Positions 3,960-8,843 of a DNA stretch of 64,000 nt are shown in pieces. The notes under the pieces are model-generated. The model ran no database searches, had not been told where the DNA came from, and saw only the letters and a list, made by a program, of their open reading frames with translations. Position 1 is the stretch's first letter. The number at the start of each line of letters is the position of its first letter. The stretch is from Chloroflexota bacterium (GTDB lineage Bacteria; Chloroflexota; Dehalococcoidia; SHYB01): contig VGPF01000006.1 in assembly GCA_016875535.1 (NCBI GenBank), positions 1-64,000 on the forward strand. Direction: 5' to 3'. Made by a program: the position numbers and the translations under genes.

Positions 3960-6149
3960 ATGTCCAACGCGCAGGCACAGTTCAAGCGGCGGCTCGCCAA
4001 GGCCCTCGCCTCGCCCACCCTGGAGCTCGCCCTGAATAGGGCGATGCCCATGCGGCGCAAGTCCCGCGCCGCCGCCTTCGCGCAGGACGACTTCGCCGCC
4101 CTGCGCGACGACCTCCAGCGGCGCAAGCGCGCCGCCATCGAGCACCTGCCGGAACTGCTGGCGCAGTTCACGGAGAACGCCGCCAAGGCGGGCGCCACCG
4201 TTTACCTGGCGCAGAGCATCGAGGACGCTCAACGCATCGTCGGCGACCTGGTGAAGCGGCAAAACGTGAAGCTGGCCGTCAAGAGCAAGTCCCTGGCGAC
4301 GGAAGAGATATCCCTGAACGAGTACCTGGAAGAGCGTCACGTGAAGGTGGTGGAGACGGACCTGGGCGAATGGATCGTCCAGCTGGCGGGGGAGAAGCCT
4401 TCCCACCTCATCACACCGGCCATGCACAAGACCCGGGAAGAGGTGGCGGAGCTCTTCAGCAAGGTCACCGGCAAAAAGATACCGCCGGACATCCCCAAGA
4501 TGGTGGCCGTGGCGCGCAAGATGCTGCGGCAGTCCTTCATAGAGGCCGATATGGGCATCACCGGCGCGAACGTCGCCATCGCGGAGACGGGGAGCCTGGT
4601 CATCGTCAGCAACGAAGGCAACGGGCGCCTGGTCTCCACCCTGCCGCCGGTCCACGTCGCCATCCTGGGCATAGAAAAGATCGTCGCCACCATGGAAGAT
4701 GCCCTGGCGGCACTGAAGGTCCTCTCCAAGAGCGGCACCGGCCAGCGGCTCACCACCTACATCTCCTACATCACCGGCCCCAGCCGCACGGCGGATATCG
4801 AGCTTTCGCTCACCACAGGCGTCCACGGCCCCAAGGAAGTCCACATCGTCCTCCTGGACAACGGCCGCACCACCATGCGCAACCGCCCCGAGTACCGTGA
4901 CGCCCTGGACTGCATCCGCTGCGGCGCATGCCTCAACGCCTGCCCGCCCTTCCAGGCCGTCGGCGGGCACGCCTTCGGCTATAAGTATCCCGGGCCCATC
5001 GGCCTTATCCTCACGGCCTTCCACCACGGCTACGAAAATGCCCAAGGGCCGCAGACCCTCTGCCTAGGCTGCAACGCCTGCCAGACGGCCTGCCCGGCCA
5101 ACATCGAGCTGCCGCGCATGATTCTGGATCTGCGCCAGGAGATGTTCGATGGCGAAAGCATCGGCATGCTGAAGGGCAACGCCCTCAACTTCCTCACTTA
5201 CCAAAGGGAAGGCAAGTGGCTCGGCCTAGCGAAGGTGGCGCAAAGGGCCTTCTCCAAAGGCGAAGGGCTGGTCAGCATCCCCGGCGTCACCGGCTGGCGC
5301 TACCTGCCCAAGCTGCCCGATAAGACCTTCCTGGAGAGGCGCGGCTTGGGCGCGAAGTCCAAGGCGACGTCTCTCGTGCGATCCCAGGCGGCGGGGCAGA
5401 GCGTCCTCTATTTCCCCGGCTGCATCACGGACAACCTCTTCCCCGCGATGGGCGATTCCGCCGTCGAAGCCCTCAACGGCCTAGGGGCCGAGGTCTCGAT
5501 CCCGCGCAAGGCCCAGTGCTGCGGCCTGGCGCATATGAACTCCGGCGATCGCGCAACGGCCAAGCGCCTGGCCAAAGAGACCATCGCGATGCTGGAGCAA
5601 GAGACGGCACAGCACATCGTCTGCACCTCGGCAAGCTGCGTGGTGGCCATGACGCAGGACTACCCGCACCTCCTGCGCGATGAGCCCGAGTGGGCGGAGC
5701 GCGCCAAGCGGCTGGCCGGGCGCATCAAGGACTTCACCTCGTTCGTGGACGGCGTGGCAAAGGTGAGCCCCGGCGCGCTGGCCAAGGGTGAAAGCGGCAC
5801 GGTGACCTACCATGACTCGTGCCAGTCCACCAACTGCCTCAAGCTGGGCAAAGAGCAGCGGCGCATCATCCAGGGCGTCGTGGGCGCGGAGCTCAAGGAG
5901 ATGGAAGAGTCCAGCCAGTGCTGCGGCTTCGGCGGGACCTTCTCTATAGACTATCCCGATATCTCAAAGCGCATCTTGAAGCATAAGCTGGACCACATCG
6001 GCGAGACGGGCGCGGAGACGGTGGTGACGGACAACCCCGGCTGCATCATGCAGCTGCGCGGCGGGCTGGAGGCGGCAGGGAAGAAGACGCGCGTTCTGCA
6101 CATCGCGGAGCTGATGGCGGAACAGATGAAAAATCACAGAAAAAGGTAA
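3960..6149 (+). CDS. LutB/LutA-like fusion: LUD domain, 2x[4Fe-4S], CCG domains
   Basis: This is a 729-residue three-part protein. Residues about 60-300 form an LUD domain as in LutB/LutC (GSLVIVSNEGNGRL). Two ferredoxin-type clusters follow: CIRCGACLNACPP near 317 and CLGCNACQTACPANIELPR near 368. The C-terminal third carries two cysteine-rich CCG domains (QCCGLAHMNSGD near 519, QCCGFGGTFSIDYP near 653) of the GlpC/HdrB/LutA kind. LutA and LutB, normally separate, thus appear fused. By family it is an oxidoreductase passing electrons from a 2-hydroxyacid such as lactate or glycolate to a quinone or another acceptor. No LutC follows; the next gene, 4 nt on, is a cysteine hydrolase. Confidence 0.85.
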   Translation: MSNAQAQFKRRLAKALASPTLELALNRAMPMRRKSRAAAFAQDDFAALRDDLQRRKRAAIEHLPELLAQFTENAAKAGATVYLAQSIEDAQRIVGDLVKRQNVKLAVKSKSLATEEISLNEYLEERHVKVVETDLGEWIVQLAGEKPSHLITPAMHKTREEVAELFSKVTGKKIPPDIPKMVAVARKMLRQSFIEADMGITGANVAIAETGSLVIVSNEGNGRLVSTLPPVHVAILGIEKIVATMEDALAALKVLSKSGTGQRLTTYISYITGPSRTADIELSLTTGVHGPKEVHIVLLDNGRTTMRNRPEYRDALDCIRCGACLNACPPFQAVGGHAFGYKYPGPIGLILTAFHHGYENAQGPQTLCLGCNACQTACPANIELPRMILDLRQEMFDGESIGMLKGNALNFLTYQREGKWLGLAKVAQRAFSKGEGLVSIPGVTGWRYLPKLPDKTFLERRGLGAKSKATSLVRSQAAGQSVLYFPGCITDNLFPAMGDSAVEALNGLGAEVSIPRKAQCCGLAHMNSGDRATAKRLAKETIAMLEQETAQHIVCTSASCVVAMTQDYPHLLRDEPEWAERAKRLAGRIKDFTSFVDGVAKVSPGALAKGESGTVTYHDSCQSTNCLKLGKEQRRIIQGVVGAELKEMEESSQCCGFGGTFSIDYPDISKRILKHKLDHIGETGAETVVTDNPGCIMQLRGGLEAAGKKTRVLHIAELMAEQMKNHRKR

Positions 6150-6153
6150 CGCC

Positions 6154-6720
6154 ATGCCGCACCCGCACCTCTCATCGGCGCAATCGTCCATCCTCGTCGT
6201 CGTGGACATCCAGGAACCCTTCGCCAAGGCCATGGCCGACCGCGCGGCGCTGGTGAAGAACACCACCACCCTCATCCACGTCGCCAAGGCCGCCGGGCTG
6301 CCCACCATCGTCACGGAGCAGAACCCGGAGAAGCTGGGCCCTACGGTCCCCGAGATCAAGAAGTCCCTGCAGGACGTGGGAGCCTACGCGCCGCTGCCCA
6401 AGATGGCCTTTAGCTGCTGCGCCGCCGATGGCTTTGTGAAGCGCGTCTACGATACCGGGCGCGATACCCTCGTCATCACCGGGATGGAGGGGCACGTCTG
6501 CGTCCAGCAGACCACGCTGGAGGCGCTGAACCTGGGCTATAAGGTCCACGTGGTGCAGGACGCCGTCACCTCCCGGCGGCGGGAGGACTATGCCGCCGCC
6601 ATCGAGAAGATGCGCCACGCCGGGGCCATCATCACCACCACGGAGATGGCGGCCTACGAGTGGCTCGGCACGGCGGGGACGCCCGAGTTCAAAGCGGCGA
6701 TGCAGTGGCTGAAGTGGTAG
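6154..6720 (+). CDS. Isochorismatase-family cysteine hydrolase
   Basis: This 188-residue protein has the compact isochorismatase/nicotinamidase fold. The likely catalytic triad is visible: Asp18 in VVVDIQ, Lys83 in PLPKMAFSC and the nucleophile Cys116 in GMEGHVCVQQT. The cis-peptide motif is also present. It is a cytoplasmic hydrolase of amide or ester bonds with substrate unknown. It starts 4 nt after the LUD/Fe-S gene and is surely co-transcribed, so both may serve one catabolic step. It faces the DUF3052 gene tail to tail. Confidence 0.85.
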   Translation: MPHPHLSSAQSSILVVVDIQEPFAKAMADRAALVKNTTTLIHVAKAAGLPTIVTEQNPEKLGPTVPEIKKSLQDVGAYAPLPKMAFSCCAADGFVKRVYDTGRDTLVITGMEGHVCVQQTTLEALNLGYKVHVVQDAVTSRRREDYAAAIEKMRHAGAIITTTEMAAYEWLGTAGTPEFKAAMQWLKW

Positions 6721-6748: not shown

Positions 6749-7153
6749 CTACCTATCCTTGAGCCGGTTCACCAGCTTTAGGCCCGACCAAACGTCGTCC
6801 ACGGCGGCCACCTTTACGTCAACCAGCCTAATCTTGAGCGCCAACTCCCGGACGATGTTCTCATTGAGGTCCGTCGGCACCTTAGATGCGCCCTTTGGCC
6901 AGGAGACCCAGATCATGCCGTTGGCCACCAAGGAGGCGCGCATCCCCGGCAGGGCCTTCTCCAAGTCAGCCTTGGACTTGGTAAAGAAATGGATGAAGTC
7001 CATGTTGGGGGCCAGCTTGGCGGAACGTTTCACCCCCGGCGGCAGAGGGCCAAGCGTCCTTTCGTAGCCCTCCGGCGCATTGAGGATGCACAAGCTGTGC
7101 CCCGGCTTGATGCCGAGCTTATCCACAAGCGGGCGCTTGGAGTAGCCGGCCAT
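6749..7153 (-). CDS. DUF3052-family protein
   Basis: This 134-residue protein shows the DUF3052 pattern: an N-terminal GYSKRPLVDKLGIKPG, then LCILNAPEGYERTLGPLP and IHFFTKSKADLEKALP, and a mid-protein GMIWVSWPKGASK. The domain is a small Rossmann-like or methyltransferase-like fold of unknown function. Its ATG lies 2 nt after the TAA of the 352-residue gene upstream. It is therefore translationally coupled as the last gene of the UGSC selenoprotein trio. I do not know this domain as a usual UGSC partner, so a shared function is inference from operon structure only. Confidence 0.75.
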   Translation of the reverse strand: MAGYSKRPLVDKLGIKPGHSLCILNAPEGYERTLGPLPPGVKRSAKLAPNMDFIHFFTKSKADLEKALPGMRASLVANGMIWVSWPKGASKVPTDLNENIVRELALKIRLVDVKVAAVDDVWSGLKLVNRLKDR

Positions 7154-7155
7154 AC

Positions 7156-8214
7156 TTAGCCCGGTATCGCCCGGGTGACGGCGTTGCCCTCCGCAAAGGG
7201 GAAGCAGGCCATGGCGTGCAGGCCGCCCAGGCCGCCGCCCACCAGGATGATGAACTGGTCAGGACGCGCCGCCAGCGGCACCTCGCCATTGACCATGCGC
7301 TTGCGCTCCTCCATCCATGGAAAGAGGACCGGCGGGAAATAGCTCAGCGGGATGTGCGACGTCACTTCCAGCAGGTACTCCTTGGCATCCTGGACGGACC
7401 AGCCGTCCCGGGAAACGATCCAGGCGAAGTCCGGGCAGAGGACCAGGATGATCTCCCCTGAGCCCGGATAGCCCAGGACCTTGTTACTGGCCGGGATGCA
7501 GAGGGAGTGGCCCAGGACTTTCAGCAGGTCCTTGGCCGATTTGCAGTTCACGTCTTGGATGTTCGTCGGCCCTTGGGAGCCGTAAACGGTGACGCAGCTT
7601 TGCTCCAGCTTGAAGCCGCGCTGCACATGGAAGGGCGGCCAGGGGCTCTTCTCCTCCCATTCGCCGATGCAGGCGGTGATACGCCCCGGCTGGCCCATGG
7701 TGGACTTGCTGACGATCCCTTCGATGGAGCCGCCGATATTGCGCATCACCAGGCGCACCGCCCGCCCGATGGTGGCGTTGGCGCGGAAGTTCCCCCCGCC
7801 GAAGAGCGAATAGCCGCAGTTGACGGCCAACTGGTTGCGCACGGGGCCGTTCAGGATAAGCATCGGCGCGACGCTGCTGGTGGTGGTGTTCACTGCGTAG
7901 AGGTTGAACTTGGGGTCGGAGCAGGCCTCGATAGCCGTGACGATGGTGGGCATGTACTCCGGCCTGGCCCCTGCCATGACGGCGTTGATGGCGATCTTCT
8001 CGATGGTGGCAGGGGCGTTGTTTGGCGGGATGGGCGCGACGACGTCCTGAGCGCCGCGCTTGGATGCGGCGATCATGCGCTCCACCCGCTCGCGCGTCGG
8101 CGGGATGACGGGCAGGCCGTCTATCCAGCCCTGGTCGGAGGCGTAGTCATAGAAGGCGTCAATGTCGTCGTTCTGCAGCGTGTGCGTCTTGGCGGTGATG
8201 TTGGCGTCCGGCAT
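7156..8214 (-). CDS. Conserved protein adjacent to UGSC selenoprotein, function unknown
   Basis: This is a 352-residue soluble protein without signal peptide or membrane segments. Recognisable blocks are DQGWIDGLPVIPPTRERV near residue 30, IEKIAINAVMAGARPEYMP near 72, SVAPMLILNGPV near 115, NCGYSLFGGGNFRANATIGR near 130 and EEKSPWPPFHVQRGF near 187. I recall homologues with these blocks as uncharacterised proteins often found beside UGSC-family genes; this recollection is unverified. It begins 21 nt after the UGSC stop and ends 2 nt before DUF3052. The conserved Cys in NCGY could be redox-active or a ligand. A role as partner or substrate-binding subunit for the selenoprotein is plausible but unproven. 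Confidence 0.7.
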   Translation of the reverse strand: MPDANITAKTHTLQNDDIDAFYDYASDQGWIDGLPVIPPTRERVERMIAASKRGAQDVVAPIPPNNAPATIEKIAINAVMAGARPEYMPTIVTAIEACSDPKFNLYAVNTTTSSVAPMLILNGPVRNQLAVNCGYSLFGGGNFRANATIGRAVRLVMRNIGGSIEGIVSKSTMGQPGRITACIGEWEEKSPWPPFHVQRGFKLEQSCVTVYGSQGPTNIQDVNCKSAKDLLKVLGHSLCIPASNKVLGYPGSGEIILVLCPDFAWIVSRDGWSVQDAKEYLLEVTSHIPLSYFPPVLFPWMEERKRMVNGEVPLAARPDQFIILVGGGLGGLHAMACFPFAEGNAVTRAIPG

Positions 8215-8235
8215 GGTGCGTTCGGTAGCTCGTCG

Positions 8236-8778
8236 CTACGCTTTCTTTTCGGTCAGCGCCCCGGCCACTTCGTTGAACTTCTCCCTGGCGAGTTTCAAAA
8301 TCTCCTCTTTCGGCAGCGGCTCAAAGGGGTGCGGCAGGACCACCATGGGGATGTTGGGCCGGTTGCGGGCGCGCAGGAGGCTCTGCGCCAGCTTCACGAA
8401 TTCGCTGGTGACGATGAGGACGGTGGGCTTGCCTTGATCGGCGACGGTAATCGTGTCGTGGACACTCCACGCGGTGCAGGAGCCTCAGGCAGCCAGGCCG
8501 ACGATGACGGCATCCACCTCCGAGGCGAACTCCTTGAGCTTCCGCGTATCCTCCAGGTTAGTGGCGGTGGTGCGGCTGGTGGGGTGGTAATGCCTCACAT
8601 CGCGCACTTCAAAATCGCTCCGGATGTGCTTGTCTACTTCCTCGCACCAGATATCGAAGTTCTTCCAGTCAACGCGGAAGCCGACCTTTTTCCCGTGGAG
8701 GCTCTCGAGCTTGTTGAGCTTGATGCCCTTCACTTCGGGCATGACGCCCGTGGGGTCCAGGATGACCAGTTGGCCCAT
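8236..8778 (-). CDS. UGSC-family selenoprotein with in-frame TGA (Sec98)
   Basis: The frame opens at the ATG at 8778 (GGGAGGT 5 nt upstream) and meets a TGA at codon 98. It continues in the same frame to a TAG at 8236-8238, giving 180 residues if TGA is selenocysteine. Residues around it read VDAVIVGLAA-U-GSC-TAWSVHD, the signature naming the UGSC family. The distal part (TITVADQGKPTVLIV, then VVLPHPFEPLPKEEI) is coherent and family-like, so this is not a truncated gene. A SECIS-like hairpin follows the TGA. The N-terminus (MGQLVILDPTGV) also matches the family. The U-G-S-C pair suggests a redox or nucleophilic centre; the substrate is unknown. A minus-strand TACAAT at 8807-8802 may be the -10. 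Confidence 0.88.
8457..8487 (-). promoter_or_regulatory. Bacterial SECIS-like element after the UGA
   Basis: Reading the minus strand from the TGA (8487-8485), a 6-bp perfect stem CGUGGA/UCCACG (8471-8466 with 8462-8457) closes a GUG triloop (8465-8463). The apical loop begins 20 nt after the UGA and starts with G. As I recall the bacterial SECIS consensus, it needs a short loop about 16-37 nt from UGA with a G in the first two loop positions, and this fits. SelB binding is inferred. Confidence 0.65.
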
Positions 8779-8843
8779 AGAGACCTCCCTGCTTGGGCGG
8801 CATTGTAGCACGGGCCCGCACGACGAAAGCTGCGGAGAAGGGT

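Follow-up and report, generated by a model that had tools for sequence, protein, structure and literature searches.

A UGSC-family selenoprotein and its companion protein in an uncultured member of the Chloroflexota

A gene on the minus strand of a Chloroflexota contig encodes, as far as its sequence can tell, a true selenoprotein that belongs to the known UGSC family. The gene lies at positions 8236 to 8778 of the window, by which is meant the whole stretch of 64,000 nucleotides analysed (contig VGPF01000006.1, assembly GCA_016875535.1). Together with a second protein encoded just downstream, it probably forms a thioredoxin-linked selenoenzyme reductase of two components, encoded in catabolic operons, in which the selenocysteine, Sec98, is coded with the help of a hairpin. 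The larger unit, that is, the partner gene, the relation to GrdB and the thioredoxin-reductase link, goes beyond the original prediction of a UGSC-family selenoprotein encoded through an in-frame TGA.

The family itself has been known since 2008, without an assigned function. It was introduced in the GOS paper as the “UGSC-containing protein”, with 255 Sec and 21 Cys forms (PMC2398784). It makes up 8.2% of the selenoprotein genes in marine metagenomes and is thus among the most abundant (PMC9402790).

Selenocysteine coding in the window gene

Read from 8778 to 8236 with TGA taken as selenocysteine (U), the gene is a single open frame of 180 residues. It has a lone U at codon 98 and a TAG stop at 8236-8238. 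The in-frame TGA lies at 8485-8487 on the minus strand and is the only break in the frame, as had been predicted. The motif around Sec98 is AAUGSCTAWSVHD. About 80 coherent residues had been expected after the TGA; there are 82, starting with GSCTAWSVHD. The product obtained when TGA is read as a stop has 97 residues, the length foreseen for a truncated annotation. The predicted coordinates were correct too, but the strand had been left out: the gene is on the minus strand. Its ATG, at 8778-8776, is preceded by the Shine-Dalgarno-like sequence AGGGAGG (8784-8790, minus strand), and the flank as a whole, CAGGGAGGTCTCT-ATG, makes a good Shine-Dalgarno site.

Assignment to the UGSC family, also part of the original prediction, is borne out by the Pfam model PF24696. 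This model matches residues 6-176, spanning the TGA, at 117.3 bits (E 1.1e-33), above the gathering cut-off of 25. The NCBIfam equivalog NF041046 gives an E value of 4.5e-27, though its 94.9 bits lie below the curated cut-off of 125. The window protein is therefore a divergent member of the family, outside the NF041046 equivalog, and an annotation pipeline may miss or truncate its gene.

The machinery that the prediction had named as a check is present in full in the same genome, which is 2.5 Mb long, in 86 contigs, and 98% complete. It comprises a tRNA-Sec with anticodon TCA (66 bits) and profile matches to selA (542 bits), selB (334 bits) and selD (371 bits). The selD gene has one in-frame TGA of its own, making SelD (G000:C4:99428-100354, L018) a further selenoprotein candidate.

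Relatives keep the TGA, and their sequences are conserved on both sides of it. UGSC genes were found in 94 of the 294 genomes surveyed in the class, and every match listed (about 150) has exactly one TGA inside the matched stretch. Of the 29 copies counted in four genomes, the window's own and three close to it, 27 have one in-frame TGA and the other two have Cys, in the motif CWGT. An alignment of relatives from Chloroflexota, SAR324, Actinomycetota and Rokubacteria, about 30% identical, shows no variation at the Sec position or at residues C101, T102, A103, W104, S105, V106, H107 and D108.

A SECIS-type hairpin, CGTGGA-GTG-TCCACG, begins 13 nt after the TGA (8457-8471, minus strand). It consists of six base pairs closed by a GUN loop. 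Other family members form these six pairs from other letters, for instance CGTGCA/TGCACG, CGCGCA/TGCGCG and CCCGCA/TGCGGG, which are compensatory changes. All six pairs are complete in 75% of 69 distinct family sequences. Random choice among synonymous codons leaves the full set in a mean of 6% (maximum 16%), and sliding the arms leaves it in 0%; a GTN loop is present in 60 of the 69. The conservation of the hairpin far exceeds what protein coding would impose, and its form is of the bacterial SECIS type. No Rfam family matches it. An isolated 48-nt RNA from the window, starting at the TGA, prefers another fold; the hairpin has a probability of 0.02 there and is not the minimum-energy structure. 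On the ribosome, the first bases after the codon are not free to pair, so this low value for isolated RNA is not decisive.

These observations bear on two other readings of the locus. In one, the TGA is an ordinary stop and the frame beyond it a pseudogene or a second gene; TGA is indeed a standard stop in table 11, and the ORF list gives the truncated frame alone. This is highly improbable, because relatives are conserved through and past the TGA, with one TGA at the same place, and because the complete Sec machinery and the SECIS hairpin are there. Even less credible is the idea that the overlapping plus-strand ORF at 7507-8808 (433 aa) is the real gene. Its frame is open, but the UGSC and partner homologues, the ribosome site and the conserved proteins are all on the minus strand, and it resembles the long antisense ORFs that are frequent in G+C-rich DNA.

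The partner protein and the gene neighbourhood

The partner, a protein of 352 residues, is encoded on the minus strand at 7156-8214, 21 bp downstream of the UGSC stop. It matches no Pfam and no NCBIfam family. Its residues C182, E185 and E187 are invariant. Its homologues stand next to UGSC genes, or are fused to them, almost everywhere: at all 18 loci taken from genome contigs, and at every one of the seven in the window's own genome, two of which carry fusions. The same holds at almost all other loci fetched, the exceptions being L107, L091 and contig ends. Plasmid loci from cultured organisms all have the partner wherever a UGSC gene can be recognised. At a Haladaptatus locus (L154) the partner is present and no UGSC gene was detected in the stretch fetched. 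In Halalkalicoccus, Halorientalis and two further haloarchaea, UGSC is flanked by a partner gene on both sides.

Where the two genes are adjacent, they share a strand in 43 of 44 pairs. Among the 294 genomes of the class, 87 have both genes, seven have UGSC only and none has the partner only (Fisher p 6e-67). The distance matrices of the two proteins correlate with r 0.937 over 44 pairs, whereas shuffling the partners among paralogues of the same genome gives a mean of 0.68 and a maximum of 0.77 (2000 shuffles). Each UGSC paralogue thus has its own co-evolving partner. The partner is an obligate companion of UGSC, and the two proteins are likely to be subunits of one enzyme that form a physical complex. 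A fusion of UGSC to a domain called “Unknown_1” was reported in the GOS paper of 2008 (PMC2398784), and this domain may be the partner protein.

The AlphaFold model of the partner has a pLDDT of 86.8, and a Foldseek search of the PDB with it gave no convincing match. All it returned were class I fumarases and Toblerone-fold hydrolases with TM scores over the query below 0.31, and these were not used as evidence of function. Identity with GrdE or with the N-terminus of GrdB was ruled out, since hhalign found no homology (0.1% against GrdE, with two GrdE sequences compared).

An example of a pair placed beside the selenocysteine machinery is found in Paracoccus ferrooxidans, where a Sec-type pair lies between selA and selB. 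The annotation breaks its UGSC gene at the TGA into two hypothetical proteins. On plasmid pFER4 of this organism (L142:1-16432), the pair is clustered with selA, selB and genes for a cysteine desulfurase, a TusA-like and a DsrE-like protein. The cluster is possibly a mobile selenoprotein island.

In the window, the partner is followed after 2 bp by an ORF of 134 residues (6749-7153, minus strand) with a weak, sub-threshold match to DUF3052. This ORF is probably part of the partner's transcription unit; it was not found at other UGSC loci. Upstream of UGSC, at a distance of 65 bp, lies the gene of a 392-residue amidohydrolase (PF04909; 8844-10022, minus strand), homologues of which lie no more than 1 kb from UGSC at four other loci. 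Amidohydrolases, CoA transferases and parts of TRAP or tripartite tricarboxylate transporters are found among the other neighbours. The neighbours point to the catabolism of imported organic acids or amides. Luciferase-like monooxygenases are near UGSC at 18-21 loci. No functional tie was read into this: the lineage is rich in such genes (PMC5395668), and one conserved SAR202-type stretch accounts for half of the loci. A divergent gene pair on the plus strand at 3960-6720 encodes a LUD-domain/Fer4/CCG fusion (729 aa) and an isochorismatase-family hydrolase; this pair was not seen at other UGSC loci.

Fold, relation to GrdB and thioredoxin reductase

The AlphaFold model of the UGSC protein, built with 18 sequences, has a pLDDT of 87.6 and a pTM of 0.82. 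It is a sandwich of alternating strands and helices, in which Sec98 starts the helix after the third strand. Matches to it in the PDB are weak (TM at most 0.53) and are flavodoxin-like or Rossmann-like; no thioredoxin is among the top 50. The predicted fold is not that of thioredoxin.

Homology of UGSC to the Sec domain of GrdB is well supported by profile alignment. With hhalign the probability is 96.2% (E 2e-9), and the UGSC motif falls on the UGTC/UGSC of GrdB. The alignment covers about 90 columns around the motif and extends through “E..GIPT” to a conserved “HP”. Controls gave 0.6% for reversed GrdB, 0.7% for GrdE, 0.7% for the partner and 8.3% for TrxB. Direct sequence searches of the PDB with UGSC, the partner and a GrdB returned no match, and PF07355 (GrdB/PrdB) has no match in the window's genome. 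The Pfam GRDB model seems to end at the Sec codon, so that the catalytic part lies outside it. Short GrdB-like proteins (L096-L100, L128-L138) have UPxC or a similar motif beyond the end of PF07355.

The selenoprotein literature groups UGSC proteins with the thioredoxin fold. Under this reading, UGSC would be a stand-alone oxidoreductase of that fold and the partner a mere neighbour. The UxxC motif does resemble CxxC. The reading is nevertheless unlikely, given the strand order of the model and the place of Sec in it, the flavodoxin-like or Rossmann-like character of the weak fold matches, the GrdB homology and the obligate partner.

Evidence for a link to thioredoxin reductase comes from the Cys-type relatives. 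A TrxB-like flavoprotein with a CxxC motif is encoded within 3.4 kb of nine of 16 Cys-type pairs and of none of 42 Sec-type pairs (p 1e-6); the association is confined to Cys-type relatives of other taxa, so that Sec or Cys is confounded with taxonomy. The nine pairs come from plasmids that belong to cultured Proteobacteria, Actinobacteria and haloarchaea, namely Roseovarius (pair and TrxB-like gene at L147:7977-10788), Arthrobacter (L144:5567-8741, where trxA is present too), two Variovorax, two Neorhizobium (records of close relatives), Haloterrigena, Halosolutus and Halostagnicola.

Some members depart from both the Sec and the usual Cys motif. A CWGT variant, with Cys in place of U and Thr in place of the second Cys, occurs on contig 10 of the window's own genome, G000 (L105:7247-8826), and in a congener (L115:504-2071), where the partner frame is interrupted by TAG. 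Since these forms lack the second Cys, a resolving Cys is not always needed. In two fused UGSC-partner proteins, on plasmids of Vibrio europaeus (L148:7413-9098) and Sporomusa termitida (L156:7320-9044), MGTS replaces UGSC/CGSC. Both are near aconitase X/DUF126 genes and belong to a branch of the family that lost the redox pair.

Such forms matter for a further alternative. The selenoprotein and its obligate pairing could be as described, and the enzyme still be no reductase of small molecules. A Sec-assisted isomerase, lyase or hydrolase would be an example; Sec or Cys would then serve as a nucleophile, and thioredoxin would merely repair it. MGTS forms without the active site persist beside aconitase X/DUF126, CWGT forms do without the second Cys, amidohydrolases and CoA enzymes are neighbours, and the partner's best fold matches, weak as they are, are class I fumarases and Toblerone-fold hydrolases. 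Those matches stay under a TM of 0.31 on the partner's own length, however, and the dedicated TrxB-like genes at nine of 16 Cys-type pairs and the conserved UxxC point to redox turnover. This alternative has a real but minor share of the probability, larger than that of a stand-alone thioredoxin-fold protein.

Proposed mechanism and comparison with known systems

In the preferred reading, a reductase, UGA codon 98 is decoded as selenocysteine by SelB and tRNA-Sec, aided by the hairpin 3' of it. The UGSC protein and the 352-residue partner would be two subunits of a single enzyme, joined in one chain in some relatives. For the UGSC subunit, the prediction is an alpha/beta sandwich akin to GrdB's Sec domain, in which Sec opens the helix that follows strand three. 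Sec would act as a nucleophile or reductant on a substrate that the partner holds or activates. The Cys three residues further on would then resolve the intermediate as an Se-S bond, and thioredoxin with thioredoxin reductase would reduce this bond again. The role of the enzyme would be a reductive step within operons that break down organic acids or amides taken up by the cell.

To our knowledge, there is no biochemistry for any member of the UGSC family. That electrons pass through thioredoxin is what we infer from the TrxB-like neighbours. That a small organic molecule, held by the partner, is what becomes reduced is suggested by analogy with GrdB, following the account of glycine and D-proline reductase (PMC13188914). 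No homology of the partner to GrdE or the GrdB N-terminus was detected, so the chemistry may differ from that of glycine reductase.

No description of the two-gene unit, the tie to GrdB or the thioredoxin-reductase link was found in the open-access journal papers searched. With a partner subunit, a link to thioredoxin reductase and a kinship with glycine reductase's catalytic domain, the family becomes accessible as a two-protein enzyme that can be purified and screened for its substrate. Such a screen is conceivable first with the Cys-type pairs of the culturable Roseovarius sp. THAF8 or Arthrobacter sp. ERGS1:01. More tentatively, and with somewhat less than even confidence, UGSC and its partner could represent a new class of two-subunit, thioredoxin-driven selenoenzymes, in which a stand-alone Sec domain of the GrdB type is set on a novel substrate-activating subunit. 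With the seven copies in the window's genome, uncultured Chloroflexota might use such enzymes for cleaving or reducing dissolved organic compounds that resist degradation.

Compared with the rest of the UGSC family (PF24696/NF041046), the window protein shows full-length homology and the Sec-Gly-Ser-Cys motif, with Sec as in most members. It is a divergent member (94.9 against 125 bits), and the partner is absent from the family's description in the literature searched, unless the “Unknown_1” domain of 2008 is this protein. With the thioredoxin-fold selenoproteins (Prx-like, Trx-like and DsbA-like), UGSC shares the UxxC redox motif and the thiol chemistry expected of it; unlike them, it has another predicted fold and an obligate partner.

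The closest known system is GrdB/PrdB (PF07355), selenoprotein B of the glycine, sarcosine, betaine and D-proline reductases. UGSC lacks the N-terminal region of GrdB, has neither GrdA/GrdE nor a pyruvoyl GrdE/PrdA alongside, and is paired with a second subunit unrelated to that of the GrdB system. What the two share is the Sec domain: U-G-(S/T)-C, a helix, “E..G.P”, a strand and a conserved HP/FP.
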